Below are positions 4,776 to 22,323 of a DNA stretch of 22,465 bases, one piece after another (positions within the stretch are counted from its first letter, which is position 1; each line of letters opens with the position of its first letter). The notes beneath the pieces were generated by a model. That model searched no databases, had not been told where the DNA came from, and saw nothing but the letters and a program-made list of their open reading frames with translations. Position numbers and translations under genes: made by a program. The stretch is from a virus. The stretch spans positions 1 through 22,465 of the IMG/VR virus record IMGVR_UViG_3300047564_000284. One strand, given 5' to 3'.

Positions 4776-5022
4776 CGAAAATGTAATCTCCATATCCTGC
4801 TGCCGTAAGTTCTACCGCTTCTGCATCTGTTATGACGTTGTCATAACCACCACGCAATACGCGGTCATATGTTGCTAAATCTGGATCATATGGAACAACC
4901 ATTGTTTTCCAAGTACCGTTGACTTTGGCAACGGTCTTACCAATAGGATAAGAAACAAACCAAAGGTCGTACTCACGACCAGGTCTGTACTTGTATGTTG
5001 GTCCTCTAAATATCTTTGTCAT
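4768..5022 (-). CDS. Small conserved phage protein, unknown function
   Basis: 84-aa protein from ATG 5022 (MTKIFRGPTYKYRPG). An in-frame start exists at 5046, but ATG 5022 overlaps the previous stop by one base (TAATG) and has AGGTG 8 bases upstream, so it is preferred. The sequence contains REYDLWFVSYPIG, VNGTWKTMVVPYDPDLATYD and a C-terminal GGYDNVITDAEAVELTAAG, resembling the pattern of a peptide ending in a beta turn plus a short helix. It ends with an acidic FDE. Such short proteins are often head-completion or decoration factors when next to capsid genes, but nothing in the sequence proves this. I know of no assigned function. Confidence 0.75.
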   Translation of the reverse strand: MTKIFRGPTYKYRPGREYDLWFVSYPIGKTVAKVNGTWKTMVVPYDPDLATYDRVLRGGYDNVITDAEAVELTAAGYGDYIFDE

Positions 5023-5297
5023 TACCACTTCACCTTGTCTGCCCAATAGGCTGCTGACATAACACCTTTGTTTATGTTCTTGGCATGACGTGCTTTGAAA
5101 CTTTGTCTACGCTGTTTATACTTCTTAGTCTCACCAGATTTTTGTGGTGAACCAGAGACTCCTTGTTGACCAAAGCGGATAGTCTTTACTTGTGAGCCAG
5201 ATTTGGCTACAACAACGTGAGACTTCTTAGGATGTGAAGGCGTTGCCTTCGGCTTGTTAAAGCCAGATACACCTGCTCGCTTTAGTCTTGGGTCCAT
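5022..5297 (-). CDS. Small basic phage protein (KARH...KNI...AAYWADKVKW type)
   Basis: 91-aa, lysine/arginine-rich protein starting MDPRLKRAGVSGFNKPK and ending AAYWADKVKW. The central part has HVVVAKSGSQVKTIRFGQQG followed by the basic stretch KKYKQRRQSFKARHAKNINK. I recognise this layout from many uncharacterised proteins of aquatic phages, where it usually lies near the major capsid gene. Its ATG follows the stop of the 40-aa gene directly (TAAATG), so it is probably translated by coupling. The charge suggests contact with nucleic acid or with the inner capsid surface; this is inference. No signal peptide or membrane segment. Confidence 0.8.
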   Translation of the reverse strand: MDPRLKRAGVSGFNKPKATPSHPKKSHVVVAKSGSQVKTIRFGQQGVSGSPQKSGETKKYKQRRQSFKARHAKNINKGVMSAAYWADKVKW

Positions 5298-5667: not shown

Positions 5668-6642
5668 TTAAGATGCGATGCTTGACTTGGTCTTGATAAC
5701 GTAACGTGCTTCTGTACGGAAGACGTTCCATCCAAGAAGACCCTTCCAACCCGCTGGGCGGAAGCGCATCAACTTATCTGTAACTGGACCGATAACAGTC
5801 TTTGGCTCATATGAGACAGCCTCGATAAGAGCCTGCTTTCCAAGAAGAACTGTTGCGTATACCTTTGATGTACCAGAACCTGAGATAGATTCTGCACGAG
5901 GTGTTTCGATATAACGAACCTGATCGAAAATACCGATCTCGCCAGACCATAGGTTACCTACACCTGCGTCGGTGTATGTGTGAGGAAGCTGCCATACAGC
6001 AGATCCTGATGTCTGTGCTTCAGAACGTAGATCGTATGAAACATCTGGGTGGATTAGTGCAGTGTATAGACCGCCTTCGCGTGTCTGTACGTTTGCTCCA
6101 CGTAGCTTTGCTACACCACGGCGAGCAAGTGCTGCTGTGAAGTTAGCTGCTGAAGTTGAAGAAGAAACATCTTGTCCATTGACTGTTGATTCGTCAGCAG
6201 AAGATGTTCCTGTGAAACGACCTGTTGCTAGACCAGTGAGCTTAGCCCATACAAGTGAGTCTAGTGAGTCGCGCATGTTGAATGACAACATGTCTGCAAC
6301 TGCTGGGTCGATTGCTGAAAGAGACTCAAGAGCAAGACGCTCAGTTGTGATTACAGCGTTACCGTATTCGTTAACAGTAACGTTAACCTTGTTGGTGTTA
6401 CTGAGCTCTACTGCATCTGGATCTTGTGTCTGTGTTAGTGCTGATGTAGCACGTGATAGGTCTGTGTAGACCTGGAATACGACAGTGTTACCTGGGTTTG
6501 TTACATCGACAGGACGCTTGTCCGCAAACTTGCGGAACATTGGTTCTGAACGAAGGTTAAACTCAATGTACTTGTCATACGCCGTCTGAATCAAGTTCGA
6601 CATTGTTGATGTCGTCGTTGACGTAGCTGGTGTTGTTGGCAC
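5668..6642 (-). CDS. Major capsid protein, N4-gp56 type (HK97 fold)
   Basis: 324-aa protein that forms the capsid shell. The N-terminal arm is followed by AYDKYIEFNLRSEPMFRKFA and GNTVVFQVYTDLSRAT, then NVTVNEYGNAVITTERLAL, a run characteristic of the N4-gp56 family of capsid proteins. Later signatures are YTALIHPDVSYDLRSEA, NLWSGEIGIFDQVRYIETPR and VYATVLLGKQALIEA. Length is normal for the family. The start is GTG 6642, chosen because AAGGAA lies 6-7 bases upstream; the in-frame ATG at 6603 has no ribosome site. The scaffold-like gene lies just upstream and a stable hairpin just downstream. No cysteine is present. I am confident of the family; the exact N-terminal boundary of the mature protein cannot be seen. 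Confidence 0.92.
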   Translation of the reverse strand: MPTTPATSTTTSTMSNLIQTAYDKYIEFNLRSEPMFRKFADKRPVDVTNPGNTVVFQVYTDLSRATSALTQTQDPDAVELSNTNKVNVTVNEYGNAVITTERLALESLSAIDPAVADMLSFNMRDSLDSLVWAKLTGLATGRFTGTSSADESTVNGQDVSSSTSAANFTAALARRGVAKLRGANVQTREGGLYTALIHPDVSYDLRSEAQTSGSAVWQLPHTYTDAGVGNLWSGEIGIFDQVRYIETPRAESISGSGTSKVYATVLLGKQALIEAVSYEPKTVIGPVTDKLMRFRPAGWKGLLGWNVFRTEARYVIKTKSSIAS

Positions 6643-7278: not shown

Positions 7279-8862
7279 TTATACGTCAGCTTTTTTAGCA
7301 CGACGTCCGAGAGACGTCGTATCAATTGCTGACTTTTGTGCAAACATTGCACGTTCTTTAGAAGCAAGCTGTTTCTTCTTTATAGTGACATCTGAGCCAC
7401 CAGCAAGAGCAAGTCCTTCACGAGCAAGATCTTGTTCTCCAGCTTGTTCACCGTATAGACCCATGAGTCTGCGGTAATCTGCTTGATCTGTTGCTGCCTT
7501 CTGGAATACACCTTCTGCTTGAGCACCTTTGCCTGCTTTGTAAATCTCTTCAGAAAATGCTTTGTCTGATAGCTGGTTAGCACGTAGTGCAGCACCACCA
7601 ATTTCAGCAGCACCATACATCTCTTGGGCTTCTGCTGTTGTATACTTAAACTTAGAGTTAATAATATCAAATGCTTTTTCGCTATCAAGAAGATAGGCAG
7701 CCATTTCGCCTTCGCTCATACCGTAGTAATTTTTAAGCGCATCCTTGGTTGCTTTGTCTGCATTCTGTAATGCATTACGAGCAATGTTGACACGGTCTGT
7801 CAATTCAGCTGCGCTGACAGAGTTTTCGATAAGACGACGGAAGTCGTCTTGTGTATCGTAGAAACCACTTGGTAGTCCAGCCTCAGCCATAATCTTTCTA
7901 TAGCCAGCCTCTGCCTGAATGTATTCAAATGGTGAAAGAAGTTTGTCACCAGGGCGACCTTTGCCATCCTTCATACGTGCAGCGATTGTTTCGTTTGCAG
8001 CAAAGCGAGTCTTGTACGCATCGCTATCATAAATACTATTCATGATCTGAGCATCAGTAGGCATGATGTTATCTTCATATACCTTATCAATGGATTTCAT
8101 TAATGAATCCATAAAGTCTGCACCAAGACCAGTGTTCTCAAACATCTTGAGAACTGAATCACGAGCACCATAATCCTTGTATGTGTCAACCATGTTACCC
8201 ATGGTTCCGTCTGACATAACTTGCCAGACTTCTACAACTCCACCAGTTTTACGAATAGTCTTTTCGTATGCAACTGTCTTTTCTACTGGCTTATCAAAAG
8301 TTGCTTTCATTGCATTAATTTGATTAAGAAGATCTGCAATTTGTGTATCAACTGCAGCTGTTGCTGCGGTTACTGGGTTAATAGGAGTGCTTGTATTGTA
8401 AGATGTGCTAAATGTAGATGTAGCAGTGCTAGTAGAAGTACTGGTAGAAGTAGCAGTACTGGTAGCAGTAGAAGTTGCAGTGCTAGTAGCAGTAGATGTA
8501 GCAGTACTTGTTGTAGTAGATGTAACTGGCTCTGAGGTAGTTGGAGCAGAGGTAGTAGGTTTTGTACCTTTTACCCCCTGACCAGGATCAATAACAATTT
8601 TTGTTCCTGACCAAATCATATTACCGTCGTTGTATTTAGGATTGTTCATGATTGCAGGATTGATTGCTCTAATCTCTGCAAGCGTCATATTGTTATCTTT
8701 AGCAATTTGAGAAAGAGTATCGCCAGGTTTAACTGTAACCTTAGTTGGTGCTACATAAGGAATAGCTGCTGCTGCTTCTCTAGCAGCTGCTGCTTTTGTT
8801 TGTTCATCAACTACTGAATTTACCAGTGTTGAAAAAGAACTTGACCATTCGTCGCGTGGCAT
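7279..8862 (-). CDS. LysM-domain internal/virion protein (527 aa)
   Basis: Residues 41-92 are a LysM peptidoglycan-binding module (VTVKPGDTLSQIAKDN, then NPAIMNNPKYNDGNMIWSGT). Residues 100-160 are a Thr/Ser linker with repeated TSTA units. The remaining ~360 residues are mostly helical and unlike any enzyme I know (VAYEKTIRKTGGVVEVWQV, then many Ala/Glu/Lys helices, GEQDLAREGLALAGG near the end). No hydrolase motif is visible, so it should not be called an endolysin. It follows another LysM gene after a 4-base gap and precedes the scaffold leader. The family context suggests an internal protein delivered with DNA, or a tail-associated cell-wall anchor. No cysteines. ATG 8862 has GGGG about 9 bases upstream. 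Confidence 0.8.
   Translation of the reverse strand: MPRDEWSSSFSTLVNSVVDEQTKAAAAREAAAAIPYVAPTKVTVKPGDTLSQIAKDNNMTLAEIRAINPAIMNNPKYNDGNMIWSGTKIVIDPGQGVKGTKPTTSAPTTSEPVTSTTTSTATSTATSTATSTATSTATSTSTSTSTATSTFSTSYNTSTPINPVTAATAAVDTQIADLLNQINAMKATFDKPVEKTVAYEKTIRKTGGVVEVWQVMSDGTMGNMVDTYKDYGARDSVLKMFENTGLGADFMDSLMKSIDKVYEDNIMPTDAQIMNSIYDSDAYKTRFAANETIAARMKDGKGRPGDKLLSPFEYIQAEAGYRKIMAEAGLPSGFYDTQDDFRRLIENSVSAAELTDRVNIARNALQNADKATKDALKNYYGMSEGEMAAYLLDSEKAFDIINSKFKYTTAEAQEMYGAAEIGGAALRANQLSDKAFSEEIYKAGKGAQAEGVFQKAATDQADYRRLMGLYGEQAGEQDLAREGLALAGGSDVTIKKKQLASKERAMFAQKSAIDTTSLGRRAKKADV
8385..8532 (-). repeat. TST/A minisatellite encoding Thr/Ser linker
   Basis: Short tandem variants of 6-, 12- and 18-base units (gta/gca/gtg/gaa triplets on the plus strand) encode the repeated TSTATST linker behind the LysM module. 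Copies are imperfect. Copy-number change would alter the spacing between the wall-binding module and the rest of the protein without shifting frame. Confidence 0.7.
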
Positions 8863-8866
8863 CTAT

Positions 8867-10090
8867 TTACCCCAAGAATCCGAAGTCGCGGAGAATAGTA
8901 TTTGCGATACCTGTCTTCTCCTCTTTTGCCCAACTTGTGAAATCAGAGTTGGGAGAACGGCGAGCCATCTTCTTTGTGTCATAAAGGTTCATCGTTGTTA
9001 CATTTCCCTTTTCATCTGTGTAGTTAAGTGCTCGCTGTACGAATGGGTTATTAAGATCCAAGGTAGTTGGATCTACTTCCCATACTCCAGCAATGGAGTT
9101 AAGCCATGGATCTGCTGCTTGGCGCAGTGTTTGTCCTTGTGATAACTGGTTAGTTAATCCAGGGAACATAGACATTGCTTGCTTTTGAAGTTCATTATCA
9201 ATATCTTCTGCATTAGTTGTACCAGCGATAAGACCTTTCATGCTGTTCTCAAACCATCCAGCAAATCGTTCATTGGACATGCTTGAATCAAATCCATATT
9301 CAGCTGCCCGCTTATAAAGTTCTTGAGCTACAGTCTCTAGTTTTCCAGTTAAGTTGTAGATCTGCTTGCCACCGATTGTGCTCTTCTTGCTAAAGTCAAT
9401 TGAGTTAGCCATAATCTTATTAAGAAACTCTTGGTCGTAACGAACAACCTTTCCAGATGCATCAATAATTACTGACTGCATTAATTGCTGTGCGTAGTCA
9501 ATAGCTTGCGCTGCTGTAATCTGAATGCCGTTACCCATAAACTGCTTAACAATATTGCTTGCATTTAATTGTAAGTCTGCAGCAAATTGACCTGGGTTAG
9601 TTTCTTTAGCATAAACAAACTGACGTTGTTTATCTGTCTGATTCTTATACCAAAGTGTTCCTTGAATCATCTGAGTCATCAATGCCTCAGATGTAATTCC
9701 TTGGCTTAGGATCTGGTCAAGAACATTTTTAAGACTTGAGTCTGCCCCAATAATACCAGCAGCAATTCCAAACTTTGCTTGCAATGTAGCCATGTCAAGC
9801 TTATCAACATTAGTAAGAGCTTGTGTTGATGTAGATGTACTGGTTACAGTACTAGTCCCAGTACTACCAGTATTAGTTGCGCTGTTTACTGCTGTACTTA
9901 AACCAGTTGTTGCACCAGTTCCTGTTGGAAGCTTAATGGTTGTTCCACTAAAGAGAGTGCTTCCACCGTTGTACTTTGGATCGTTTTTTAATACTGGGTT
10001 AACAGCAAGAATTTTTGCTACAGTTGTTCCGTTGGCAGCAGCAATCTTGCTAAGCGTATCGCCAGTTTTAACCGTTACCTTATCTGCCAT
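8867..10090 (-). CDS. LysM-domain internal/virion protein (407 aa)
   Basis: LysM occupies residues 4-55 (KVTVKTGDTLSKIAAANGTT, NPVLKNDPKYNGG, FSGTTIKLP), followed by a Gly/Thr/Ser linker (56-95) and a helical C-terminal part of ~310 residues of unknown function (QGTLWYKNQTDKQRQFVYAK, QITAAQAIDYAQQLMQ, FAGWFENSMKGLIAG, LRQAADPWLNSIAGVWEVDP). The last pattern (helical, with W/F residues) resembles internal proteins of other phages but is not diagnostic. The start ATG 10090 overlaps the upstream gene by 11 bases, with AGGT 9 bases upstream. No cysteines and no catalytic motif. Its LysM is clearly related to those of the next gene and of the gene at 16461-17990, so these are paralogous modules. 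Confidence 0.8.
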   Translation of the reverse strand: MADKVTVKTGDTLSKIAAANGTTVAKILAVNPVLKNDPKYNGGSTLFSGTTIKLPTGTGATTGLSTAVNSATNTGSTGTSTVTSTSTSTQALTNVDKLDMATLQAKFGIAAGIIGADSSLKNVLDQILSQGITSEALMTQMIQGTLWYKNQTDKQRQFVYAKETNPGQFAADLQLNASNIVKQFMGNGIQITAAQAIDYAQQLMQSVIIDASGKVVRYDQEFLNKIMANSIDFSKKSTIGGKQIYNLTGKLETVAQELYKRAAEYGFDSSMSNERFAGWFENSMKGLIAGTTNAEDIDNELQKQAMSMFPGLTNQLSQGQTLRQAADPWLNSIAGVWEVDPTTLDLNNPFVQRALNYTDEKGNVTTMNLYDTKKMARRSPNSDFTSWAKEEKTGIANTILRDFGFLG

Positions 10091-10907
10091 CGCCGATTAC
10101 CTGTCCAATCGCATTAGGATCTTTTAATAACTTCTCAACAAGACCTAAAAATGTATTGGCTGCAAATGATTCTGCGTAGTCTGGTCGAGACATTGCAAAG
10201 TTACGAGCAAACATTGTTGGATCAAATCCAGTTTTTGATGTTTGATTTGTTGTAGATGTTCCTAATGTATTTTTTCCTTTAGGAGCAGTCGTTGTTGTTG
10301 ACCCTTCAGTTACTGATGGATCTTTCTTTGCTGCAGCATTGACGCCCTTTTTATATGCATCAATTTCAGCTTGTGTCGCTCTGCGACCAAGTCTGCGCTC
10401 CATCTCATCACTGATCTGCTGAGCAGCAGCAGATCCGCTGTACTCAGTTATCTGTGTATTCTTGAATCCTTGTGTGCCATATCGTGGTCCGCTTGAACTT
10501 GATTCAAGATCTCCAGGACGCAATAGGTTAAAGTAATCAACTGGGTTTCCGTTACCAGTTCCTGGTGACTGAGTCCAGTCGACCGCTCTTTTCCAGAGAC
10601 CATCTACTTCTTTATCTGTTACCTTGCGACCAAGGTTATATTCAATACCAGCCTTAAGGATGCCGTACTTCTTGCGATCATTTACTCGAAGCGCAGCAAG
10701 TGCTCTAAGTGCTTGTGTAGAACCACCTGGCACTGGCATTGGCTGACCGCTTGCATCTGTTATCCAAGGAAGATAGATAGGGGCGATGTCTGTTTCAACA
10801 TTAGTGTAAGGATTAGGACCTGAAAAAGTTTTACCATTATTGAAATCGTATGGGTACTTATCTTCACTATCTGGAATGCCATCGTAATCGCTGTCTTTTT
10901 TAGCCAT
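10080..10907 (-). CDS. Virion-associated protein with N-terminal Ca-binding repeat (275 aa)
   Basis: The first 16 residues include DSDYDGIPDSED (residues 5-16), which matches the calcium-binding DxDxDGxxDxxD of thrombospondin type-3-like repeats. The next parts have no recognised fold: PIYLPWITDASGQPMPVPGG, a helix (ALRALAALRVNDRKKYG), NLGRKVTDKEVDGLWKRAVD, and near-repeat RLGRRATQAEIDAYKKGV (both 'LGRxxTxxEvd' helices). A Ser/Thr/Lys linker follows, then a helical tail (FARNFAMSRPDYAESFAANT). ATG 10907 overlaps the 1660-aa gene by 8 bases (ATGGCTAA). Position inside the internal-protein cluster suggests an ejected or tail protein. No cysteines. The calcium site is by pattern only. Confidence 0.75.
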   Translation of the reverse strand: MAKKDSDYDGIPDSEDKYPYDFNNGKTFSGPNPYTNVETDIAPIYLPWITDASGQPMPVPGGSTQALRALAALRVNDRKKYGILKAGIEYNLGRKVTDKEVDGLWKRAVDWTQSPGTGNGNPVDYFNLLRPGDLESSSSGPRYGTQGFKNTQITEYSGSAAAQQISDEMERRLGRRATQAEIDAYKKGVNAAAKKDPSVTEGSTTTTAPKGKNTLGTSTTNQTSKTGFDPTMFARNFAMSRPDYAESFAANTFLGLVEKLLKDPNAIGQVIGDGR

Positions 10908-13900
10908 TAGGGACTGCCACCTTTTCTATATCTAGTTCTGGCATTGATTCAAGCCAACGCGCAGCAAACGCTGCGAATCCATCGCTTGCGCCTTGTACGA
11001 ACTTGTAATGAAAGTTATTCAAAGAAGAAGAGAACCCTTGGTCTCTTGCTGTTGTTGAGCCAAGCTTTCCGTAACCTGATCGGAACTGTTCTACTTGACC
11101 AATCCAGAATGAAATCTCAGCCCACTTGCCACCATCAATTGGATCAACATACTTGCGCCAAGTTGGATCGTTAGCAATCTTCTTTAGTATTGGGAATGTT
11201 TGATCCCAGAACTTTCCTTGCTGCACGGTACGGTCATTAACCCATCCTGGGTAGTTAGCCTTAATCTCAGCAACTCTTTCATCAAACTTTCTTTTGATTC
11301 CAGTGTATGTATAAGCATTGCTCTGAGTTGAGCCAACTCCGTACTGAGCCATTTCGCCGTTACGTGCATCAACTGCCATGTTGTAAGAGACCCAACCAAG
11401 ACGAGCATCTGTCTCGTTTCGAATTTCTTCTTCAGTCTTCTGACGTGAAAGCTTTGTCATTGTTCCAGGAAAGTTTAGGTTCTTGTATATCTCAGCAACT
11501 TCTGTTGAGTAATCAACAGCAAGGTCGCCGTAACCGCTTGACATCATACGTGCGTACATTGGGTCAACGTTTGCAAAAGATGCAAGAAGTTCACGGTTAC
11601 TACGAATCATCTTGATATCACTTATTGTGGATGCAACTCCAGCAATATTCTTTTGGTGTGAACCTAGGAATGCTAGTCCGTCGATTCCCCAGTCTTTCAT
11701 CATTGCTCTATCAGCAGCTGCATAATCGCTGTTGTTCTTTTCAAGTAAGTCTGCGTAGTATGCTTTAGCTGCTCTAGTTACTGGGTCAAATGTTGTAGAG
11801 ATTGGCATATTGAACTGAACAATTGCCTTAATTAAGTTAAGGTTTGAAGCAGCTTTTCCTGCTTGTTCAATTGTTGGAGCATTACCAATGCGACCGTCAC
11901 GATGCCATTCTGCATAAGCAACCTGCCAGTTGGTGAACACCTGATCCATGTATCGTTCACCTGTTGGGAACAACGACTCCATGTAGGCTGGCTTAATAGC
12001 ATTAACTGCTGTTGCTGCAAGGTTACTTCCTGATGTTACGTAACCACCGTAGAGAATACTATTTTCGTAGAAGTCGTCACCAAATGTATTACGTAGGTAG
12101 GACACAACCTTTTCACCATCTGGTGTCTTCCACAATGGTGTGTCAAGTTGACCCTTGATAAGAGATGAAACAAGAACACTGCCAAACCAAGCAACGCTTG
12201 GGTCTGCAATCATAAACTCCATCTGCTTTGGATTCCATTTAAGTCCACCACCACGAGTATCTGTGTATGGTTTTAAGGCTGCTGCTGCAGCCTTTCCAAT
12301 TCCTGGAATGTTTTCAATCTTTGTTGTAATGCTTGCTGGGATCGGGTATGTAACAGATACCACAGTTCCTGGAGGAACATCAATCATTGACTTGTATGTA
12401 TTTCCTTCTTGGTCAACATACGGTTCAAAGTTAGCAAGAGAATCAGATACACTGTTATACCAGTAAGCGTTCATTGGGTTCTTAGCCATAAGCTTGAGTG
12501 CTACTGCCTGGCTGTTGAAGAACGCCATTGGGAACGCCATTGCATAACGTGCTGCATACATTCCGTTAGTTAGACGACGTGATGAGTAAAGAGTCTCTTC
12601 AATTCTTGACACTGCATTACGCATTGCAATCTGACGGAACTGATGATTGACTACCACATCAGATGGATCTACACCAGTACGACGAGCGGACTTGATTAGG
12701 TATTCCATTTCTTCTTTTGCGTAGATCATAAACATTGGGTTACGAACTAACTTGTTTTCAGCAGCACCTAGTAGACGCCATGCTGTTCCCTGAACGTTGG
12801 CAACTCGTGATACGAGTCGCTCACCTTTGCTTAGATCTGACAGACTTACGTTAGGTCCATCAATTTCTGGAAGAAGATCTGCTCGAGACTTAAGGAAATT
12901 TTCTACTTCCTTAACTGTTACTGGTCGCTCTAAAGCGATTCTGCGTAATTCTTCACTTGGTACAAACTTTTGAAGATAAGCACTTGTCTCGCTTGTCCAT
13001 GACAAAAAGTCATCTTGCGTAAGAGTTCTTCCAGCATCAGATGACATACGGCGACGGTATTCTTTACCAGCCTCTGTCTTATAAAGAAAGTTCATGATTG
13101 CTTGATCTGATTCACCACGAAGCATCATGCCGAGAGGCATGTCAAGTTCCTGACGAATCTGACGGTTAAGCACGTGAGCGATAGCGTTGTAATACGCCTT
13201 GCCATCTTCGCGCTTTACTCTTACCCATTGCTGGCTACGAGCACGAACATTCATAGATGCTTCTGATTCAAATAGCTTTGAATACAAACTAGATGCTGAA
13301 TCAATCTCGTCTAGATATACAGCTGCACCGCGAACGTTAGGATCACCAAGACCCTTAATGTTGTAATCCTTACCATCAACTGTAATAACATCTGCTTCTT
13401 TACCAATGTACTTACGTTGCTTCATGTCGCCTTCACGGCGAATTGCGCCTGCGACTTTTGCTCGGTTCTTTTCAATAAGAATTGATAAGCCAGTTACTGC
13501 ATCAGATGCAAGCTTGGCTTCGTTAGAAACCTTTGTATATTCATTCTGAGCCAAATATAATTTATAGTCAGCGTCATGCTTAGCAGATGTAGCAGCTGCT
13601 TTCTTAGCTGGAGTTGCTGCCTTTAATGCAGCTTCTGCTGCATCAGAGTTGGCTTTAGCTGTTAACCATAATGCTTCAGCATCTGCTTCAACCTTGGCTG
13701 TTGATTCCATTTTTCTAATCATTGGATCTAACTTGCCATAGGCAATGTCAATGTCTTTAAGAATTGCCTGCTCTGCTTTGCGAGAAGCAAAGCTTGCTGT
13801 TCCTGGCACATATCGATTCATTAACTTGAATCTATTTGCAGAATTTTCTACCATATTGCCAAAGCCAGGGATCGCATTACGTGCTAACTCTGTGCTTTCA

Positions 13901-15882
13901 AGAGCCATAGAACCACGCATAAATGGATCGATGATTGCGTTCTTTGGGATATATGCAACACGCAATAGGTTCAAGTTGTTGAACACCATGTTAGCAATAT
14001 CTAGGAATTGACCTGCCTGCATGCCATACTTGCCCATGTATGTGCGAGCAACTGTTCCCTTACCGATACCAGAACGTACGCCTGCGCGTTCACGTGTTCC
14101 TAAGATAACTTCCATTTCAAGTTTGCGGAAGTCAAGCATTGGTACGTTGTTAACTTCAGTTGTTTGTGAACGAAGTTGAATAATGTTAAGGCTGCCATCT
14201 TCATCTGGGATAAGACCCTGCTTTTTGGCAAACTCTGCTGCCGTTGTACGACGAGAATCTGCTGCTTTGTGAAGTGTTTCAACCATCTTGATAAGTTCTG
14301 CATCATCACCAATGCCACCGATTGAGCGAACGTTGTATTGCTTCGCAAGGCGAAGCATAACTTCCTTCTCAATGGCAACTAATACACGAGCTTGTTCGCT
14401 ATTAGTTGTGGCAGAAAGAAATCTTTCAGCCATCTGACGCTTGAACATTTCGCCTTGCTTACCCTTAAGGAACTGAAGACGATTGAGTTCTGAAAGAACA
14501 TCGTTAACCGCTTCACCCTTACGTGGGTTAGAAAGATTGATGTAACCTTGTGGACGCGCATCTCCTGTCCATGTAATAACACGAACTATGCGGTCATATG
14601 GTGAAGATTGGTATACCTTTGTACGCCATCCATCTTTAGTTGGATCGCTACCAAAAATCTTTGCGCTGCCGTAGCGAGCACCTTCACGTACCTTGTTAAG
14701 AGACAGTGCTGCTGACTCAACCATTCCGAATCGCCCTGGTACATAACCAGTTCCGCGATCACCAATGTTTGCTTTGCTTGCCCAGTCGTCTAACTGTGCA
14801 GCAAATGCCTTGTCTTTAGACTTAAGGTCGTTAATAATTGCTTGGTATCGTGGTGCTAAGTTCTCTGTGAGAACTTCATCATGAATCTTGCTCCAGTCAC
14901 TGACTGGGCTGAAGTCTTTGAACCCATAGTTGTCAAGATGGTCAGCACTTAATGCTTGCTTCTGCATGAATCGGTCGAATGCTGCTGCATCACCACGTTC
15001 TGCCTTGAGATAATCAGCAAGATCTGCGTGGTTGTCGATACGAGAAACAATTGTTGCCGTACGTAGTGGGTTATTTGTCTCAGCAATAAGAGGGTTAGCC
15101 TGTAAACGCTGAACGTTACGCTCTTTAACCGCATCATCCATGTAAACAGCAAGACCGCTTGGGGCTGTGTCTAGTTTTCCACCAGCTGCCCACTGAACAG
15201 CCTCATCTGCCTTAGCAGAGAACTGTTGCATGTCCTTTTCGGTAACGATTCGTGAAGTTCCACGTACTTTTTTCATTGCTTCTTTTGTAGCAGCACCTGC
15301 AACCTTGCTCATTACGCCATTGATAGCAAGATCTGTAGCACCAGATGAAACAATTCCTATGAACTCATCACGGAATGCTTTATCTCGTTGCTCTTTATCA
15401 AAGATATTAAAGTCTTCTTTAGCAACTGTAGGTAAAATGCTTTGTGGTAACGGCAAGTTGCCCAATACGTTTCTTGAAACAGCCTGACCCATTGAGATAT
15501 TCTTGGATTCATCGACTGCCAACTGGAAAGCTTTAGGAATTGCAGATAACCCGCTACCTTTTTTCTGTGCTTCCAATGCTTCTGGTAGCAATGCTGTTGT
15601 AGCAACAACACGTTGTGCTGGTTGGATAACATTCTTGTATGCATATTCCATTGTGCGAAGTGCAGGGTTAACAATAAATCCTAGTGGACCTTTTTGCGCC
15701 TTCTCAATTTGCTTACCAACGAATGGAAGAATCTTTTCTTCTACGCCACCGACCTTAGTTCCGTCATCAAATGTACTCTTCTTAAAAGAATCTACCTTTG
15801 ACAAAGGTTTTTGTGGTACTGGCTGTCCGCCAACTGTTGCGCCTAGACCAGAAAAATCAAATGGTTGTCTGTTGTCCGCCAC
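10900..15882 (-). CDS. Large internal virion (putative ejection) protein, 1660 aa
   Basis: The largest gene in the window. It starts at GTG 15882 (MADNRQPFDFSGLG), supported by AAGGA 8 bases upstream. I see no enzyme motif; the protein is mostly alpha-helical with a Lys/Ala/Glu-rich coiled stretch at about 725-830 (AEAALKAATPAKKAAATSAK). Around residue 650 it has LLRVAYIPKNAIIDPFMRGS and near 1110 FNSQAVALKLMAKNPMNAYW, segments I associate with very large actinobacteriophage virion proteins. No cysteine occurs in all 1660 residues. Size, helicity and place between portal and capsid fit an internal protein that enters the host with DNA, like T7 gp16, but without its transglycosylase. A tape measure is less likely as no tail-tube genes are seen. 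Confidence 0.75.
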   Translation of the reverse strand: MADNRQPFDFSGLGATVGGQPVPQKPLSKVDSFKKSTFDDGTKVGGVEEKILPFVGKQIEKAQKGPLGFIVNPALRTMEYAYKNVIQPAQRVVATTALLPEALEAQKKGSGLSAIPKAFQLAVDESKNISMGQAVSRNVLGNLPLPQSILPTVAKEDFNIFDKEQRDKAFRDEFIGIVSSGATDLAINGVMSKVAGAATKEAMKKVRGTSRIVTEKDMQQFSAKADEAVQWAAGGKLDTAPSGLAVYMDDAVKERNVQRLQANPLIAETNNPLRTATIVSRIDNHADLADYLKAERGDAAAFDRFMQKQALSADHLDNYGFKDFSPVSDWSKIHDEVLTENLAPRYQAIINDLKSKDKAFAAQLDDWASKANIGDRGTGYVPGRFGMVESAALSLNKVREGARYGSAKIFGSDPTKDGWRTKVYQSSPYDRIVRVITWTGDARPQGYINLSNPRKGEAVNDVLSELNRLQFLKGKQGEMFKRQMAERFLSATTNSEQARVLVAIEKEVMLRLAKQYNVRSIGGIGDDAELIKMVETLHKAADSRRTTAAEFAKKQGLIPDEDGSLNIIQLRSQTTEVNNVPMLDFRKLEMEVILGTRERAGVRSGIGKGTVARTYMGKYGMQAGQFLDIANMVFNNLNLLRVAYIPKNAIIDPFMRGSMALESTELARNAIPGFGNMVENSANRFKLMNRYVPGTASFASRKAEQAILKDIDIAYGKLDPMIRKMESTAKVEADAEALWLTAKANSDAAEAALKAATPAKKAAATSAKHDADYKLYLAQNEYTKVSNEAKLASDAVTGLSILIEKNRAKVAGAIRREGDMKQRKYIGKEADVITVDGKDYNIKGLGDPNVRGAAVYLDEIDSASSLYSKLFESEASMNVRARSQQWVRVKREDGKAYYNAIAHVLNRQIRQELDMPLGMMLRGESDQAIMNFLYKTEAGKEYRRRMSSDAGRTLTQDDFLSWTSETSAYLQKFVPSEELRRIALERPVTVKEVENFLKSRADLLPEIDGPNVSLSDLSKGERLVSRVANVQGTAWRLLGAAENKLVRNPMFMIYAKEEMEYLIKSARRTGVDPSDVVVNHQFRQIAMRNAVSRIEETLYSSRRLTNGMYAARYAMAFPMAFFNSQAVALKLMAKNPMNAYWYNSVSDSLANFEPYVDQEGNTYKSMIDVPPGTVVSVTYPIPASITTKIENIPGIGKAAAAALKPYTDTRGGGLKWNPKQMEFMIADPSVAWFGSVLVSSLIKGQLDTPLWKTPDGEKVVSYLRNTFGDDFYENSILYGGYVTSGSNLAATAVNAIKPAYMESLFPTGERYMDQVFTNWQVAYAEWHRDGRIGNAPTIEQAGKAASNLNLIKAIVQFNMPISTTFDPVTRAAKAYYADLLEKNNSDYAAADRAMMKDWGIDGLAFLGSHQKNIAGVASTISDIKMIRSNRELLASFANVDPMYARMMSSGYGDLAVDYSTEVAEIYKNLNFPGTMTKLSRQKTEEEIRNETDARLGWVSYNMAVDARNGEMAQYGVGSTQSNAYTYTGIKRKFDERVAEIKANYPGWVNDRTVQQGKFWDQTFPILKKIANDPTWRKYVDPIDGGKWAEISFWIGQVEQFRSGYGKLGSTTARDQGFSSSLNNFHYKFVQGASDGFAAFAARWLESMPELDIEKVAVPNG

Positions 15883-16036
15883 TTACTGGTCCTTCCGTCT
15901 TATCCGTTAATTCGTTTAGCAAAGCAATACGATCTTCATCGGATTCGAAAGGGAAACGAGCTAAATCCCAGGCAACTGGAGCCATGTCAAATCCAAGATA
16001 CTCAAGGTTTTCTTCAAATTTGCGAAAAACCTTCAT
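15857..16036 (-). CDS. 59-aa small protein
   Basis: Starts at ATG 16036, which overlaps the upstream stop (ATGA). The product begins MKVFRKFEENLEYLGFDMAP, continues VAWDLARFPFESDEDRI and ALLNELTDKTEGP, and ends QQTTI at TGA 15857. Its last 26 bases overlap the start of the 1660-aa gene, in another frame, and contain that gene's ribosome site. It fills a 150-base gap completely. The sequence looks like an amphipathic helix pair; I know similar tiny proteins in actinobacteriophages but no function. Cysteine-free, like its neighbours. Confidence 0.78.
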   Translation of the reverse strand: MKVFRKFEENLEYLGFDMAPVAWDLARFPFESDEDRIALLNELTDKTEGPVSGGQQTTI

Positions 16037-16452
16037 TGAGCATTACCTCTTAGATAGCGTATAAACGCTTTCATGGTTCCAGTTGACTCGGTTGTATCAG
16101 CGTAAGCTGCCATCAATGGCATGTACTTAGCTAATACACTTAAATCTTCCTGCATAGTTTCTGCAGCACCTTTTAATCCTAGAATTTCACTTCCTGGTCC
16201 TGGACCAGCGTCAATTCCTGCAGTAACAGGTTCGCTTGGTCGGTTAGTTGGCGCACTAAATGGCACAACATTAGCCATTGGGTTAGGAGCTTTTGCCATT
16301 GGTGCGCTACCTTGCATTGCCTGAAACTCTTTTTGCTCGCCATAGGCTGCATTAGGAAGTCTTTTAGCACCTTGTGATGGAGGAAGGTCGGTGCGCTTAG
16401 AAAGCTTTCCAGGACCTGACACTACACCAGGGTTAGGTTGCATCATTGACAT
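16033..16452 (-). CDS. Conserved actinobacteriophage-type structural-cluster protein (139 aa)
   Basis: 139 aa. The N-terminal half is flexible and proline/glycine-rich with a recognisable order of blocks: NPGVVSGPGKLSKRTDLPP, KRLPNAAYGEQKEFQAMQ, GSAPM, PTNRPSEPVTAGIDAGPGPG. The C-terminal ~45 residues are helical (ETMQEDLSVLAKYMPLMAAY, MKAFIRYLRG). I recognise this order from proteins near portal and internal-protein genes in actinobacteriophages; their function is not known to me. ATG 16452 has AAGG 7 bases upstream. The stop overlaps the next ATG (ATGA). A linker-type head protein is possible, with low certainty. Confidence 0.78.
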   Translation of the reverse strand: MSMMQPNPGVVSGPGKLSKRTDLPPSQGAKRLPNAAYGEQKEFQAMQGSAPMAKAPNPMANVVPFSAPTNRPSEPVTAGIDAGPGPGSEILGLKGAAETMQEDLSVLAKYMPLMAAYADTTESTGTMKAFIRYLRGNAQ

Positions 16453-16460
16453 TAGTTACC

Positions 16461-17990
16461 TTATTTCTTTGGAAGTTTTACCTTTGTACCAGCCCAGATC
16501 ATATTTCCACCCTTGTACTTAGGGTTTGTCTTGAACTTGGTATTAGCTGCTAGAAGCTCGGAGAGCTTCACGCCTGAATTTTTTGCGATAGCAGAGAGAG
16601 TATCTCCGCGCTTTACAGTATAAGAAGATGTTGTAGATCCTCCTGGACCTGGTGTTACACCAGCAGCTCCGCCTTTTGCTCCACCTTTTGCAGAACCCGC
16701 AGAGCCAGCAGAACCTGCTCCTCCAGCTGCACCCGCTGCTGGGCGTGTCTTAGAACCACCCTTGTATGCAGCAGTTCCTGGAACAAGGCTTTCACCTCTA
16801 GGACCATAACGCAATCCCTTATTAGCTTTAGCAGTTTTCTGTTGCTTATACTTAGCAAGTTTCTTTTCTGCTCTATCTGCAGCTGTGCCGACATCTTCGC
16901 CAGCAAGACCCATAGTTACATATCTAGCAAGTTGCTTTGCTGAAGTTGGAAGTGATCCAACTGCTGCTCCAGCTTTTTCTATTGGGTTACGGTTACGACC
17001 CTTTTGTTCGTAGAACAAATCTGCTTCAGCCTGAGCCTTACGCTTAGATCCTTCAACCATATTCTTGGCATCAAATGTTGCAGCAAGTGCTCCACCAATA
17101 AGACCAAACTTTCCTGCCTTCTTAAGTTTGCTTCCTTTTTTAACAACAGTATCGCTGCCAGGGATTGGCTTTGCCTTTACATCAATAGTACCTGTTCTTT
17201 GGCTTGCGACTTCACCCTTTGGACGAATTGCAATTTCCTTGGAACCTGAAAGCTTGCCTTGCTTAATTAGTTTTTCTTGTGTCTTCTTTAAGTAGTCATC
17301 TTCCATCTGTGTAAGTGATGCATCAGTTGGACGTGCCATCTTTGGCGAACTAGACTTCTTAGTTTTTGGTGCAGTATCTGTCTTAGCTTTTGGTGATTCA
17401 GTTTTCTTAGCTTCTTTTTCTTGTGCAAATAAAGCTTTGTTCATTGCCTTCTTAGGTGCAACGCCTTCTTTAACAAGAGCATCGTAGCGAGCCTGACCAG
17501 TTGCGTTAAGAGTCTTACCAGCTGAATAACCTTTAGTTGCAGGCTTCTTTGCAGATGACTTCTTCGCAGACTTCTTCTTTAATCCTGGCTTATTAACCTT
17601 TGGCTTTGTCTCAGTAGGTGCTTCTACAGCAGCAGGAGTAGACGCTTTTGCAGCGGACTTCTTTGCTGGCTTTTCATTCTTAGCATCTTCTGCTTCATAC
17701 ATACGATCAACTGCTGCCTTAGCCTCACGGCGATCACGGAGCATACGCTCTTGAGCAGTCTCTGTAGGCTTTTGGAAAACCTTATTGCCTTTATCATCGG
17801 TAATGTAATTACCGCGAGCTTCTTTCTTTACTTCTGAAAGAACCGCTCTATCTTCAGCAGACACCTTTGCCATAGGGTCACGGCGTACTGCCTTTGTCTT
17901 TCCACTTGTGAAAGCTCCCCTGGCGTCGGCAACGGCAGCTTTACGCGCCTGCTTAAACTTCTTAGGAGCTTTCGGTTTCTTCGCTGCCAT
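16461..17990 (-). CDS. Histone-H1-like basic protein with C-terminal LysM domain (509 aa)
   Basis: Residues 1-230 are Lys/Ala/Pro-rich, like histone H1 tails (AKKPKAPKKFKQARKAAVAD, KPAKKSAAKAS, KKKSAKKSSAKKPATKG). The middle has basic helices and one short hydrophobic stretch (GKFGLIGGALAATF, near 295). A Gly/Ala/Ser linker (about 415-455) leads to a LysM module at 455-509 (YTVKRGDTLSAIAKNSGVKL, NPKYKGGNMIWAGTKVKLPK), which binds peptidoglycan-type sugars in known proteins. The module is the C-terminal end here, but the N-terminal end in the two LysM genes downstream. A basic DNA-binding part plus wall-binding end suggests a protein packed with DNA and acting at entry; this is inference. ATG 17990 has GAGGATAA upstream. 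No cysteines. Confidence 0.82.
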   Translation of the reverse strand: MAAKKPKAPKKFKQARKAAVADARGAFTSGKTKAVRRDPMAKVSAEDRAVLSEVKKEARGNYITDDKGNKVFQKPTETAQERMLRDRREAKAAVDRMYEAEDAKNEKPAKKSAAKASTPAAVEAPTETKPKVNKPGLKKKSAKKSSAKKPATKGYSAGKTLNATGQARYDALVKEGVAPKKAMNKALFAQEKEAKKTESPKAKTDTAPKTKKSSSPKMARPTDASLTQMEDDYLKKTQEKLIKQGKLSGSKEIAIRPKGEVASQRTGTIDVKAKPIPGSDTVVKKGSKLKKAGKFGLIGGALAATFDAKNMVEGSKRKAQAEADLFYEQKGRNRNPIEKAGAAVGSLPTSAKQLARYVTMGLAGEDVGTAADRAEKKLAKYKQQKTAKANKGLRYGPRGESLVPGTAAYKGGSKTRPAAGAAGGAGSAGSAGSAKGGAKGGAAGVTPGPGGSTTSSYTVKRGDTLSAIAKNSGVKLSELLAANTKFKTNPKYKGGNMIWAGTKVKLPKK

Positions 17991-18013: not shown

Positions 18014-18412
18014 TTACTTGTTGAAGCCTTGCTTGAAGTTCTTGACAGCTCCTGCAGCATTGCGCTTTGCAATTCCTGCAACCTTGCCTGGAAGTTGAAC
18101 GTTTGCCTTTACTGCTCCGCCAACAAACTTAGCTGCTTCTTTAGCTGGATTAACTGCTCCAAGAACTGGCTTAGCTTCCTTGATTGTCTTAACAATCTGT
18201 GCAGCTTCTTTTGCAGTTACACGGTATTGATTTGTAATAGCCTGAACTAATCCATCGCCAGACTTAGGACGTGAACCAGCAGTCTTGTCTAGGTTAGTCT
18301 TCTTTAGTCCCATTGATTCTGCCTTCTTTACTGCGCGATTCTTTGCTGCATTGCGGGCAGTAGTTCTGGCTTTGCTTTCCTTCTCGTACTCAAAAAAATA
18401 CTTTTCTGCCAT
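18014..18412 (-). CDS. Small basic protein (132 aa)
   Basis: 132-aa Lys/Ala-rich protein starting MAEKYFFEYEKESKARTTAR. It has two basic segments (AAKNRAVKKAESMGLKKTN and KVAGIAKRNAAGAVKNFKQG) around a helical middle (NQYRVTAKEAAQIVKTIKEA). No known domain is recognised. The ribosome site AAGGAGATATTAAA before ATG 18412 is one of the strongest in the window, so high expression is likely. It lies between portal-linked small gene and the H1-like LysM protein, forming a block of three basic proteins. DNA binding in the capsid is plausible but not shown. Cysteine-free. Confidence 0.78.
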   Translation of the reverse strand: MAEKYFFEYEKESKARTTARNAAKNRAVKKAESMGLKKTNLDKTAGSRPKSGDGLVQAITNQYRVTAKEAAQIVKTIKEAKPVLGAVNPAKEAAKFVGGAVKANVQLPGKVAGIAKRNAAGAVKNFKQGFNK

Positions 18413-18598: not shown

Positions 18599-20374
18599 TT
18601 ATGCTGGGATCTGACGAGTTACTCTCGCTGCTAGATTTGGATTTCCTCCACCTGTTAAACCTGCAAGCAGTTCTTGCATTGCTGGTCTACCTTGAGGAAG
18701 TTGTGGTGCTTGTCCTCCACCCATTCCAGGTTCAGGAACTGCTGGTTGTTCAGGCATTCCTGGTTGTCCTGCTGGTGGTTCTGGTGCTGGCTCTGGCTTA
18801 AAAGCATTTGCTACTGCATCCTCAAGAGGGATACCCTTTTTGCGATCTGTAATAACGCTTGCCATCTTTTCTACAATCTTCATCGGGTCTTGACCTTGCA
18901 TTACCATTTGTGGAATTGCTGCAGCCATTTGCGATACGGACGCCTTAAGGGAATCACGCATTTCTTCGATGTCAATTGCTCGCTCTTCTTCGCCAGCATT
19001 AAGCGAGATAGGAAGGTTGCGACGCAACATTCCTCGAGAGATTAACTTATCTCCACGAGCTTGTAGACCCCATACCAATGCGCGGTTAGGATCTAAACCT
19101 GCCATAAGACCGTACTCAACGGTCACGCCAAAGTTTCCGTTAATGTCGGAAGATGGCTTGTACTTTAACTTGTAAGGAACTCCGTTAGCAGTTGCAGATA
19201 CTTCACGAGTAATATCTGTAAAGTATGCTTCATCAGTTGCGAATGCAAATGAAATTGCTTGTCCGATTGCCTCACCAAGAATTGATTGGTAAATCTTAAC
19301 TTGTGAATCGTAGCCTGCCATCAAAGCCTTTACGCCTTGACCAGTAACTACTGAACCTTCTGCTTGTCCTGCACGTGCTTGAGGGAAACGTGTTCCCAAC
19401 TTCATTTCATCTGCTAGAACATTGTTCTCCGCAAATGCGTACTGAGGTACGTCCAGATTAACACGACGAATCTTTTCAGGGGAATTAGAACGAATGACTG
19501 AATCAGGACCAATGGATAGAGAAGTAACATCATTGGGAAGAGCAAGAGGAGCTTCAACAGACTTCTGAACAGCTTCCATGGTAAGAAGAGCAAGTCGCGC
19601 TTTCGCTGCGTAAACAGGTAGTACATCGTCGAATTGACCCCGAGTTTCTCCATCAAGAGAAGGACGTTGAGCAATCGCAATTGGGACGACGCCTGTTTTG
19701 TTCGGTGTTGTTGCAAGTACTAAACCTCCCCGATCTGGCAAGAAGAGAACAGTCTTTTGCTTATCTGTCCAACGTACAACTTGTAACAAGCTGTTGCCAT
19801 CGCCACGTGTATAAGTATTTGTTTGAAGAATTGCATCGGCATGCTCGGGGAAATGAGCAGCCAAATCTCCAGCTTTACGGTGATATAGACGAGCGTAGGT
19901 GTTTACAACACCGAAGCGATCCATATCGTAATAAGCACCCATTGAATTTTCCACATGGATGTGTGGTCGCTTGTCCTTAAAGTTTGGTTCAACTCGCAAA
20001 GGAACAAAGCCATAGGTTGCTAACTGATCTGCGCCACGCAGTAGTTCCGTTCCAAGCCGAGATGATGCAACATAATAATTTGCAATCTTGGTACGCTTGT
20101 CAGCCTTGGAACGCTGGTTATCATCTAGAGAAGAATCACCAGCAGCAGTAATGGTAGGAAGAACACCGACTTGTTCAGCAACATCTCGTGCAACGACATC
20201 AATGAGGTTTGCAATGATGGGACGTGACCACACGCCTTCTGGGAATAGCCCACGGAAGACTTGATCGGCATTACCCGCTCTAACCAAAGCAACCTCGCGC
20301 ATGCGCTTATCGCGCTCGGAGTTACGAGCTTTTAATTGCTCGAATGCATTTACAAGTTCTTTCATTAATGTCAC
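18599..20374 (-). CDS. Portal protein
   Basis: 591-aa protein placed right after the large terminase, where the dodecameric portal of tailed phages is normally encoded. It starts with a helical N-terminus (LVNAFEQLKARNSERDKRMR), continues with VWSRPIIANLIDVVARDVAE, GADQLATYGFVPLRVEPNF, NSMGAYYDMDRFGVVNTYAR, then RLALLTMEAVQKSVEAPLAL, LGTRFPQARAGQAEGSVVTG and ALMAGYDSQVKIYQSILGEA, a run I recognise from portal proteins of actinobacteriophages. The C-terminal 60 residues are Pro/Gly-rich and probably flexible. The start is GTG 20374, overlapping the terminase TGA by 4 bases; ATG 20365 is an alternative with no better ribosome site. No cysteine. No protease domain follows. Confidence 0.88.
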   Translation of the reverse strand: MTLMKELVNAFEQLKARNSERDKRMREVALVRAGNADQVFRGLFPEGVWSRPIIANLIDVVARDVAEQVGVLPTITAAGDSSLDDNQRSKADKRTKIANYYVASSRLGTELLRGADQLATYGFVPLRVEPNFKDKRPHIHVENSMGAYYDMDRFGVVNTYARLYHRKAGDLAAHFPEHADAILQTNTYTRGDGNSLLQVVRWTDKQKTVLFLPDRGGLVLATTPNKTGVVPIAIAQRPSLDGETRGQFDDVLPVYAAKARLALLTMEAVQKSVEAPLALPNDVTSLSIGPDSVIRSNSPEKIRRVNLDVPQYAFAENNVLADEMKLGTRFPQARAGQAEGSVVTGQGVKALMAGYDSQVKIYQSILGEAIGQAISFAFATDEAYFTDITREVSATANGVPYKLKYKPSSDINGNFGVTVEYGLMAGLDPNRALVWGLQARGDKLISRGMLRRNLPISLNAGEEERAIDIEEMRDSLKASVSQMAAAIPQMVMQGQDPMKIVEKMASVITDRKKGIPLEDAVANAFKPEPAPEPPAGQPGMPEQPAVPEPGMGGGQAPQLPQGRPAMQELLAGLTGGGNPNLAARVTRQIPA

Positions 20375-22323
20375 AATCTCACGGCTCGCTGTTGTGCAGC
20401 GAGGTCATCTAAGTTGATGATGTACCTTGACTCAATCTGTCCACGAGGTGTGAATTGATTGTTTAGAAAGTTAGGTACGTTAGTCGAGGTTAATAAAGTT
20501 TCTCTGGCTACGATCTCACAGAACCATAACGCCATAACGGCGTCCATCTTGAGCTTCTTGCCTTGTACTCCTGGTTGCCAGGTTACTAGTTGTTCTATTA
20601 ACTTTTTAACATGTTCATTCTTCGAGCTATCTGGCAACTCAATTAAGTTATCGTCAGCATGCTTGAAGTTGTTCATGACACCATCTCGCTTAGTGATGGT
20701 TCCGAACAGTGGAGCCAGAGAGGCTACGCCAAACTCTGGATCCTGTTTATTGTTTCCTGTGTAGTGAGGTCGGTATGCGACTCCACGTGTAGACAGGAAG
20801 TTACGAATCTCTTCGTCTTGTGTAAGGAAAAGCTGAAAAGCATTTGATTCCACAATGACCGTATGCGGTTTATACGCATCGGTCCACTCCCTAATAAGAG
20901 AACGAATTGCTGCAGGTGTAGGAGCTGTCATGATGTGAACATCCATGACGTAGCGTTTATGTGACCTGCGGTCAACCGCATAGGCGATAGCAGCGGTATC
21001 ACCAGACATTGCTGGGTCGATACCTATAACTCTGTAGAAGTTCTCACAGTTATTGGGATGTCCTGCTGCGCCTGCAACCAAAGCCCCCGACTTTCTCATT
21101 CCGTTTACTGCGCCTCTGACGCACATCGGGTCGAAGATTGCATTCTCCGCAATATCGAGGTTCTGGTAAACCAGTGACCACTTAGATGGTCCTGCCTCGT
21201 TACGGACCGCCGTTAGACGCGGTCCTGTCCATCGATCAAACAAACCATTCTCGTCGGGTACGTCAGTATCCGTAAGAGGTTGTTCAGTTTTCTCCCAAAG
21301 ACATTTCCAGTCTTCAGGCTTGTCTGCATATTCTAAGACTGCAGGCATGGACAAATATGACCAAGGCAATATGCCATCGGTGTAATGCTGTGGGTTGCGG
21401 AGCTCTTTATATAAGTCAACCGCTGAGACTCTAGTACCGACAACAAGAAGTTGCCCACCACCTGGTGGAAGGCGGGAAGCAACTTCCTGTCGAATCCACT
21501 CTTGTTGCTTAGCCCACTCTGAAGCATTACTCAGAGTGACTACGTCGTCTAGAACAATTAGGTCTGCACGGTTTCCGTAAACTTGCCCGCCCATACCGAT
21601 AGCTTCAACCGAAGGGTCTTTAGCATCGTTATCGCGGATGTCGCCACCAAGATAAATCTTGGTTGCTGACCACTGGTCTGCAGTAGCTTTGTACCCATCG
21701 ACTGGACCAAAAGCTGCCTGTAGGTCAGCGTACCTCGGATGCGTCAAGCGTTGCTTGATTGCATACAAAAACTTCTTTGCCTGCTCCTGGGTTTTAGAAA
21801 TAACCATGATGGAGATATTAGGATTTTTAACCAGACGGTAGGTCACATAGTTAATCGTGATCGTCATCGTCTTGGCGTGGTTAGGGGGTACGTTTACCAA
21901 GAGGCGGGATAAGCCCGCCGACCCTTTTTCGTAGACCATGCTGTCGTGTAACCAAGAAGGATCATTGCCTTCCAACATGTCCACCACATTCATCATGTGG
22001 GGTGGAACCTTGGTTCCCAAGTAATTCTCAGAGAACTCCGCAAATCCAGATAGTTCAGACCGAGCGTTATCAGCGAGGTCTGATGTTCTAAACCGAGCAT
22101 TATCTACATAAGCTGAGAAGCCCTCGGCTTCTCGGCGTTGGGTATCATACCAAGAGCGAGACCTACCAATAACCTTTAGGGCATCGGCGATGGTGCGCCC
22201 TTGGCGTACCAAGTCGATTAGTTCTTTACGAGCTTCTTCTGGTGATAAATTTCTTTCCAATGTGGACTCCAGGGTCTGTAGTAGTACAGAGGGGTCTGGG
22301 CAGAAGTATCCCCACTCTTGCAT
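20371..22323 (-). CDS. terL: Terminase large subunit with N-terminal HTH-like region
   Basis: 650-aa packaging motor. The ATPase part has a Walker A variant PPNHAKT (residues 146-152, Ala in place of the usual Gly), Walker B LIVLDD (255-260) and a coupling-type LLVVGTRVS (292-300). The nuclease part has GIDPAMSGD (434-442; D436), VESN (E492) and KMDAV (D594), the three acidic positions expected of the RNase-H-like fold. Residues about 25-65 (SPEEARKELIDLVRQGRTIA, DALKVIGRSRSWYD) look like a helix-turn-helix, as in small terminase subunits, so DNA recognition may be partly built into this protein. No separate small subunit is visible; it may lie beyond the right edge. Five cysteines. ATG 22323 has only a weak ribosome site. 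Confidence 0.93.
   Translation of the reverse strand: MQEWGYFCPDPSVLLQTLESTLERNLSPEEARKELIDLVRQGRTIADALKVIGRSRSWYDTQRREAEGFSAYVDNARFRTSDLADNARSELSGFAEFSENYLGTKVPPHMMNVVDMLEGNDPSWLHDSMVYEKGSAGLSRLLVNVPPNHAKTMTITINYVTYRLVKNPNISIMVISKTQEQAKKFLYAIKQRLTHPRYADLQAAFGPVDGYKATADQWSATKIYLGGDIRDNDAKDPSVEAIGMGGQVYGNRADLIVLDDVVTLSNASEWAKQQEWIRQEVASRLPPGGGQLLVVGTRVSAVDLYKELRNPQHYTDGILPWSYLSMPAVLEYADKPEDWKCLWEKTEQPLTDTDVPDENGLFDRWTGPRLTAVRNEAGPSKWSLVYQNLDIAENAIFDPMCVRGAVNGMRKSGALVAGAAGHPNNCENFYRVIGIDPAMSGDTAAIAYAVDRRSHKRYVMDVHIMTAPTPAAIRSLIREWTDAYKPHTVIVESNAFQLFLTQDEEIRNFLSTRGVAYRPHYTGNNKQDPEFGVASLAPLFGTITKRDGVMNNFKHADDNLIELPDSSKNEHVKKLIEQLVTWQPGVQGKKLKMDAVMALWFCEIVARETLLTSTNVPNFLNNQFTPRGQIESRYIINLDDLAAQQRAVRL

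Follow-up and report, generated by a model that had tools for sequence, protein, structure and literature searches.

A conserved family of lysine-rich LysM proteins encoded in the portal neighbourhood of uncultured viruses, a candidate entry component of putative podovirus-type actinophages

The 509-aa protein described here, which joins a long basic region to a C-terminal LysM domain, represents a real, conserved, and undescribed family; it probably belongs to the phage particle and helps to grip the wall during infection, and it is not a real histone. The gene lies on the minus strand (16461 to 17990) of a 22,465-base IMG/VR virus record, referred to throughout as the window, in which all genes of interest are on that strand. 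A probability of about 0.5 was assigned to the reading that the product is a structural DNA-delivery or entry protein of podovirus-type actinophages, with the LysM gripping the wall. The observations behind this reading are the domain layout, the synteny, the selection on both ends of the protein, the basic middle, and the confinement of LysM domains to the structural cassette. The 509-aa proteins form a sizeable family, and dozens of related viruses keep the gene in the portal neighbourhood. It is the family that is new; wall-active parts in phage delivery proteins and LysM domains in phage virions were known already.

Gene structure and domain layout

The open reading frame is intact from its ATG start at 17990 to its end at 16461, is preceded by a Shine-Dalgarno sequence (AGAGGA), and is separated from the adjoining genes by short gaps. 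The N-terminal conserved domain (residues 1-104; 17679 to 17990) is of mixed charge (net +12), and helices were predicted in it at residues 12-28, 45-60, and 79-104. The middle (residues 105-453; 16632 to 17678; net +44) is basic and mostly disordered, with low pLDDT over most of its length, and its charge is kept among orthologs whereas its sequence is not. It contains a Lys/Ala/Pro-rich patch (residues 105-160; 17511 to 17678; pLDDT about 35-48), a two-helix hairpin (residues 161-197; 17400 to 17510; pLDDT about 89 over residues 161-190), a Gly/Ala-rich segment that is the most hydrophobic stretch of the protein (residues 292-308; 17067 to 17117), and the motif RYGPxGxSLVPGTxAYxxGSxTRP (residues 393-417; 16740 to 16814). 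The hairpin or a related Ala/Trp module is present in 40 of the 45 full-length orthologs (window included), and all 45 have a mildly hydrophobic segment, at varying positions and mostly under the typical transmembrane score. The LysM occupies residues 454-509 (16461 to 16631, including the stop codon). The mean pLDDT of the protein model was 56, and structure matches landed on the LysM, not on the N-terminus or the middle.

Orthologs, gene order, and selection

Scans of viral contigs produced 30 loci with the full query and 86 matching contigs with the N-terminal domain, 80 of which were kept; the two sets overlap. Comparisons were based on 45 distinct full-length proteins, including that of the window, all of which come from uncultured viruses. 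The full protein was found in none of 84,980 bacterial species scanned once, matches in annotated phages were only of LysM length, and beyond its LysM the family has no description in PHROGs, Pfam, or NCBIfam. The first-pass annotation had proposed that a strongly basic region and a genuine LysM are joined in one protein, and this was confirmed, both features being kept in 44 of 45 orthologs. The pairing is no one-off: the three-part layout runs through the ortholog set.

Where flanking sequence was present (about 80 loci, with overlaps), the genes were ordered terminase, portal, 509-aa gene, p139, p59, and a 1660-aa giant. In the window the terminase large subunit is encoded at 20371 to 22323 (phrog_38, E 1e-69; PF17289) and the portal protein at 18599 to 20374 (phrog_104, E 4e-33), both on the minus strand. 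Mean pairwise identity was 0.59 for the N-terminus, 0.34 for the middle, and 0.66 for the LysM, and the corresponding medians of pairwise dN/dS were 0.32, 0.72, and 0.22, values that serve as description rather than as a test because the pairs are non-independent. The N-terminus and the LysM are under purifying selection, and the middle drifts yet stays basic.

Two loci carry breaks regarded as frameshifts or sequencing errors: the L061 gene falls into two ORFs, of 158 and 340 aa, and in L104 the N-terminal match is present with no ORF match. The contig of L022 (G004; 82,688 bases) is about twice the usual genome size, carries two LysM gene sets, and is probably two phage genomes joined.

The lysine-rich region

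The protein has a net charge of +66 and contains 17.5% lysine, compared with 2-7% in the other large proteins of the window. Across orthologs the net charge of the middle ranges from +39 to +65, or +10.6 to +18.3 per 100 residues (a descriptive range), and its composition includes 18% lysine and 17% alanine, with Cys and His absent. Two further proteins of the window, of 407 aa (8867 to 10090, minus strand; PF01476 E 6e-10) and 527 aa (7279 to 8862, minus strand; PF01476 E 2e-8), carry N-terminal LysM domains followed by Ser/Thr-rich, neutral linkers, and in two tape measure proteins on other contigs the linkers preceding the LysM range from neutral to slightly acidic. Because the other LysM linkers are neutral, positive charge is a trait of the 509-aa protein and not of LysM linkers in these genomes.

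The first half of the protein had been likened to a histone H1 tail. The short motifs quoted for this do occur, KKSAAKAS spanning residues 110-117 and KKKSAKKSSAKK spanning residues 138-149; the extent given was incorrect, as residues 1-104 form the conserved helical domain and the Lys/Ala/Pro-rich stretches appear only after it, in the disordered region. The likeness stands for the lysine/alanine-rich composition, which is shared with the H1-like proteins HC1 and HC2, and fails for homology. A search of the window and four relatives at E<=10 found no globular winged-helix domain of linker histone H1 (PF00538), chlamydial HC1 (PF07432) gave no match at E<=10 in a profile search, and the H1-like repeat of HC2 (PF07382) was absent from the window, with one relative scoring 8.5 bits where the cut-off is 40. 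Histone H1 homology was rejected on these three profile searches. The lysine clusters lie in a fast-changing disordered region; the lack of sequence conservation of the basic region between orthologs also sets the protein apart from HC1 and HC2. Weak Pfam matches to SASP and At2g29880_C were obtained for a few orthologs (E 0.002-0.008).

The LysM domain

The claim of a full LysM at the C-terminal end was upheld by the profile search, in which residues 457-507 matched PF01476 with 36.3 bits, above the cut-off of 20.9 (E 5.3e-9), and by the predicted fold, and PF01476 was matched by 45 of 46 aligned members. In the model, residues 453-508 superpose on solved LysMs (VIA Z 6-7, rmsd 1.2-2), the nearest of which are the peptidoglycan or chitin binders YkuD, MltD, P60, and SafA (Z 6-7); phage structural LysMs score lower (Z about 4.8-5.5; P2 gpX 4.8), with a small gap to the wall binders. 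The LysM family and the predicted fold together suggest contact with peptidoglycan. A purely structural LysM has been described in the virion of phage Mu (PMC11915804), and because the LysMs of phage virions include such purely structural ones (Mu gp43, P2 gpX), we can only infer wall binding for that of the 509-aa protein.

The 44 LysM domains found among the 45 orthologs comprise 27 of type A, marked by an insertion resembling KYKGGNMIW, and 17 of type B, which is short. Different types are attached to N-termini that are 82-89% identical in at least three groups: the window versus L012-L014, L018, and L022; L097, L099, and L109 versus L108; and L048, L050, L054, and others versus L060. Because types A and B are swapped on similar N-termini, a LysM is retained even though its type changes. 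The remaining ortholog, L078 (706-1950), is a natural LysM-less allele with the N-terminus of L079, in which 56 codons are gone in frame between two similar GC-GG-GG stretches; this loss, known from a single contig, may be an assembly artefact. The sequence RYGPxGESLVPGT from the middle motif recurs N-terminally in the p275 homologs of L012, L014, and L018, which together with the LysM exchange argues that parts are shuffled within the cassette.

Cultured relatives and probable host

The gene order of the window is shared with LanE43AprE7, a cultured Planktophila phage, and with FlowerPower and Manuel, cultured Streptomyces phages of the Beephvirinae, and identity to Beephvirinae-like phages, in the same order of genes, is 42-43% for the terminase, 38-39% for the portal, and 43-45% for the capsid protein. 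No LysM was found in LanE43AprE7, FlowerPower, or Manuel. A search of F5, cultured like LanE43AprE7 (E7) and paired with it, returned no match to the 509-aa gene. The 509-aa protein is therefore an addition in one lineage or a loss in others, and the absence of the gene from cultured phages of like gene order means that the machinery does not universally include it.

Nanopelagicales rank with the most abundant bacteria of fresh water, and we know of no account of the route by which their phages cross the thin actinobacterial wall. A freshwater member of this group is probably the host of the window phage, to judge from the synteny and from whiB, WhiB being encoded in 13 of 13 genomes tested (ten near-complete relatives and the three cultured phages) and having been taken as an actinophage mark by Kavagutti et al. 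(PMC10202952). Electron microscopy showed Abafar (Beephvirinae) to be a podovirus (PMC11536984), and Destructrice, a cluster-mate of FlowerPower, has been called a podovirus (PMC13097060). For the window phage, known from its genes, the synteny with Beephvirinae points to a podovirus-type virion.

Proposed role and alternatives

As an entry protein, the 509-aa product would be docked in the particle near the portal or the internal core by its conserved N-terminal domain; its disordered lysine-rich middle would pack against or ride with the packaged DNA, or hold anionic polymers; and its C-terminal LysM would engage host peptidoglycan when the entry apparatus meets the wall. It would thus be carried in the virion, might leave with the DNA, and could contact both DNA and peptidoglycan. 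An entry role for the LysM is plausible, and entry is favoured because the LysM is tethered at the free end, the cassette adjoins the portal, and the same LysM type is found on tape measures elsewhere. The clear domain layout and the natural LysM-minus allele make a wall-binding role in podovirus entry directly testable.

Podovirus ejection proteins include gp14, gp15, and gp16 of T7 and gp7, gp16, and gp20 of P22, and like their genes the 509-aa gene sits among structural genes. It differs from them in its position beside the portal, and its product in being mostly disordered and very lysine-rich and in carrying a LysM as putative binder rather than a hydrolase; outside the LysM, neither sequence nor structural homology to known ejection proteins was detected with a model that is mostly of low confidence. 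In T7 gp16, peptidoglycan hydrolase and DNA-binding activities occur together (PMC8954989), linking delivery of the genome both to processing of the wall and to binding of DNA, and in the TM4 tape measure protein a wall-active motif aids DNA injection (PMC1796659). Tape-measure-like proteins on three other contigs (L024:3322-6306, L028:3283-6288, and L029:2859-5852), in which WhiB gave no match, terminate in a LysM of this type, with 62-64% identity to that of the 509-aa protein. As with these and with mt3 of TM4 Tmp, a small wall-directed domain would have been added to a delivery protein; unlike tape measures, which are length rulers of long tails, the 509-aa protein is basic and is encoded in a short-tail gene cassette.

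The first-pass annotation had suggested that the protein packs DNA in the head and ties it to the wall, possibilities for which the evidence is its charge. A specific form, in which the protein is ejected with the genome, its lysine-rich region stays bound to phage DNA, and the LysM anchors that DNA at the host wall as a tether to peptidoglycan during entry, is conceivable but unlikely. We know of no described phage in which DNA is delivered in this way.

It is quite unlikely that the LysM serves virion assembly as a structural module and binds no peptidoglycan, with the basic region as a flexible tether. Structural LysM folds do occur in Mu gp43, Milano, A-1(L), R2 pyocin, P2 gpX, phiCD508, and contractile injection systems, and Mu gp43 and P2 gpX are virion proteins. 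Their LysMs are embedded, in these two cases in a baseplate assembly, whereas that of the 509-aa protein ends a long flexible linker; its best fold matches are carbohydrate-binding LysMs, and the swapping of subtypes and the single loss would be poorly tolerated by a tight assembly interface.

No greater credence was given to the whole protein being a wall adhesive that handles no DNA, its lysine-rich middle acting with the LysM to bind surface polysaccharide or anionic polymers of the wall. The LysM is itself basic (+10 in 56 residues) and the charge of the protein is not tied to DNA specifically, but the other two LysM proteins of the operon manage without a basic linker, and the 509-aa gene is portal-proximal and away from the fibre genes.

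Less probable again is an intracellular helper of assembly or packaging, such as a portal or terminase cofactor or a scaffold-like protein, that stays outside the virion and uses its LysM late if at all. The gene adjoins those of the portal and terminase, and its basic residues might keep hold of DNA as it is packaged; on the other hand, the LysM is the most constrained part of the protein, which is hard to explain without extracytoplasmic work, and a better candidate for a scaffold is the acidic 153-aa protein, whose gene adjoins that of the capsid protein. Finally, a role as an accessory of lysis or wall modification, produced late in infection, is very improbable, for although LysMs are typical of phage endolysins and the annotated phage matches to this one are mostly endolysins, neither a catalytic domain nor a clear transmembrane segment was found in the protein, its start is lysine-rich and not hydrophobic, and the gene lies in the structural operon rather than in a lysis cassette.

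Other genes of the cassette

In near-complete relatives, LysM matches occurred only in ORFs resembling the three structural LysM proteins. In FlowerPower and Manuel the 407-aa protein has LysM-free homologs, the 'minor tail proteins' of these phages. The linker of the 527-aa protein (7279-8862) differs between relatives, with TSTATSTA repeats versus TPSPTPSP repeats (compared with L027:7275-8942).

All remaining genes discussed are also on the minus strand. A small basic protein (132 aa, +18; 18014 to 18412) is encoded upstream of the 509-aa gene, and the conserved 139-aa neighbour (16033 to 16452; phrog_8200, E 6e-36) is also found in FlowerPower and Manuel. The 1660-aa protein (10900 to 15882; phrog_10618 of unknown function, E 4e-264) is a candidate internal or ejection protein; the model of its residues 461-1660 is almost all helix, at low confidence (mean pLDDT 46). 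It matched a Manuel locus by blastp (E 1e-4), and a tblastn search in 'phages' returned nothing. A likeness to type III needle proteins, seen as weak matches of its profile to the PDB, was dismissed as chance. The major capsid protein is encoded at 5668 to 6642 (PF13252, E 2e-14; phrog_1357), and the other genes comprise a 59-aa ORF and those of a 275-aa protein, the acidic 153-aa protein, and tail-fibre-like products.

A basic 91-aa protein (+19; 5022-5297), which has a counterpart of 78% identity in the cultured Planktophila phage, matches the PHROG 'minor head protein and DNA pilot' (E 6e-5) and, as a candidate for DNA binding, may surpass the 509-aa protein. Between the portal and 509-aa genes, some relatives encode low-complexity proteins with MADxRWYYDxKxKTWKPMSSLPKG followed by Pro/Lys/Thr repeats (L003:5624-5998, L005:804-1247, and L019:5429-5971).
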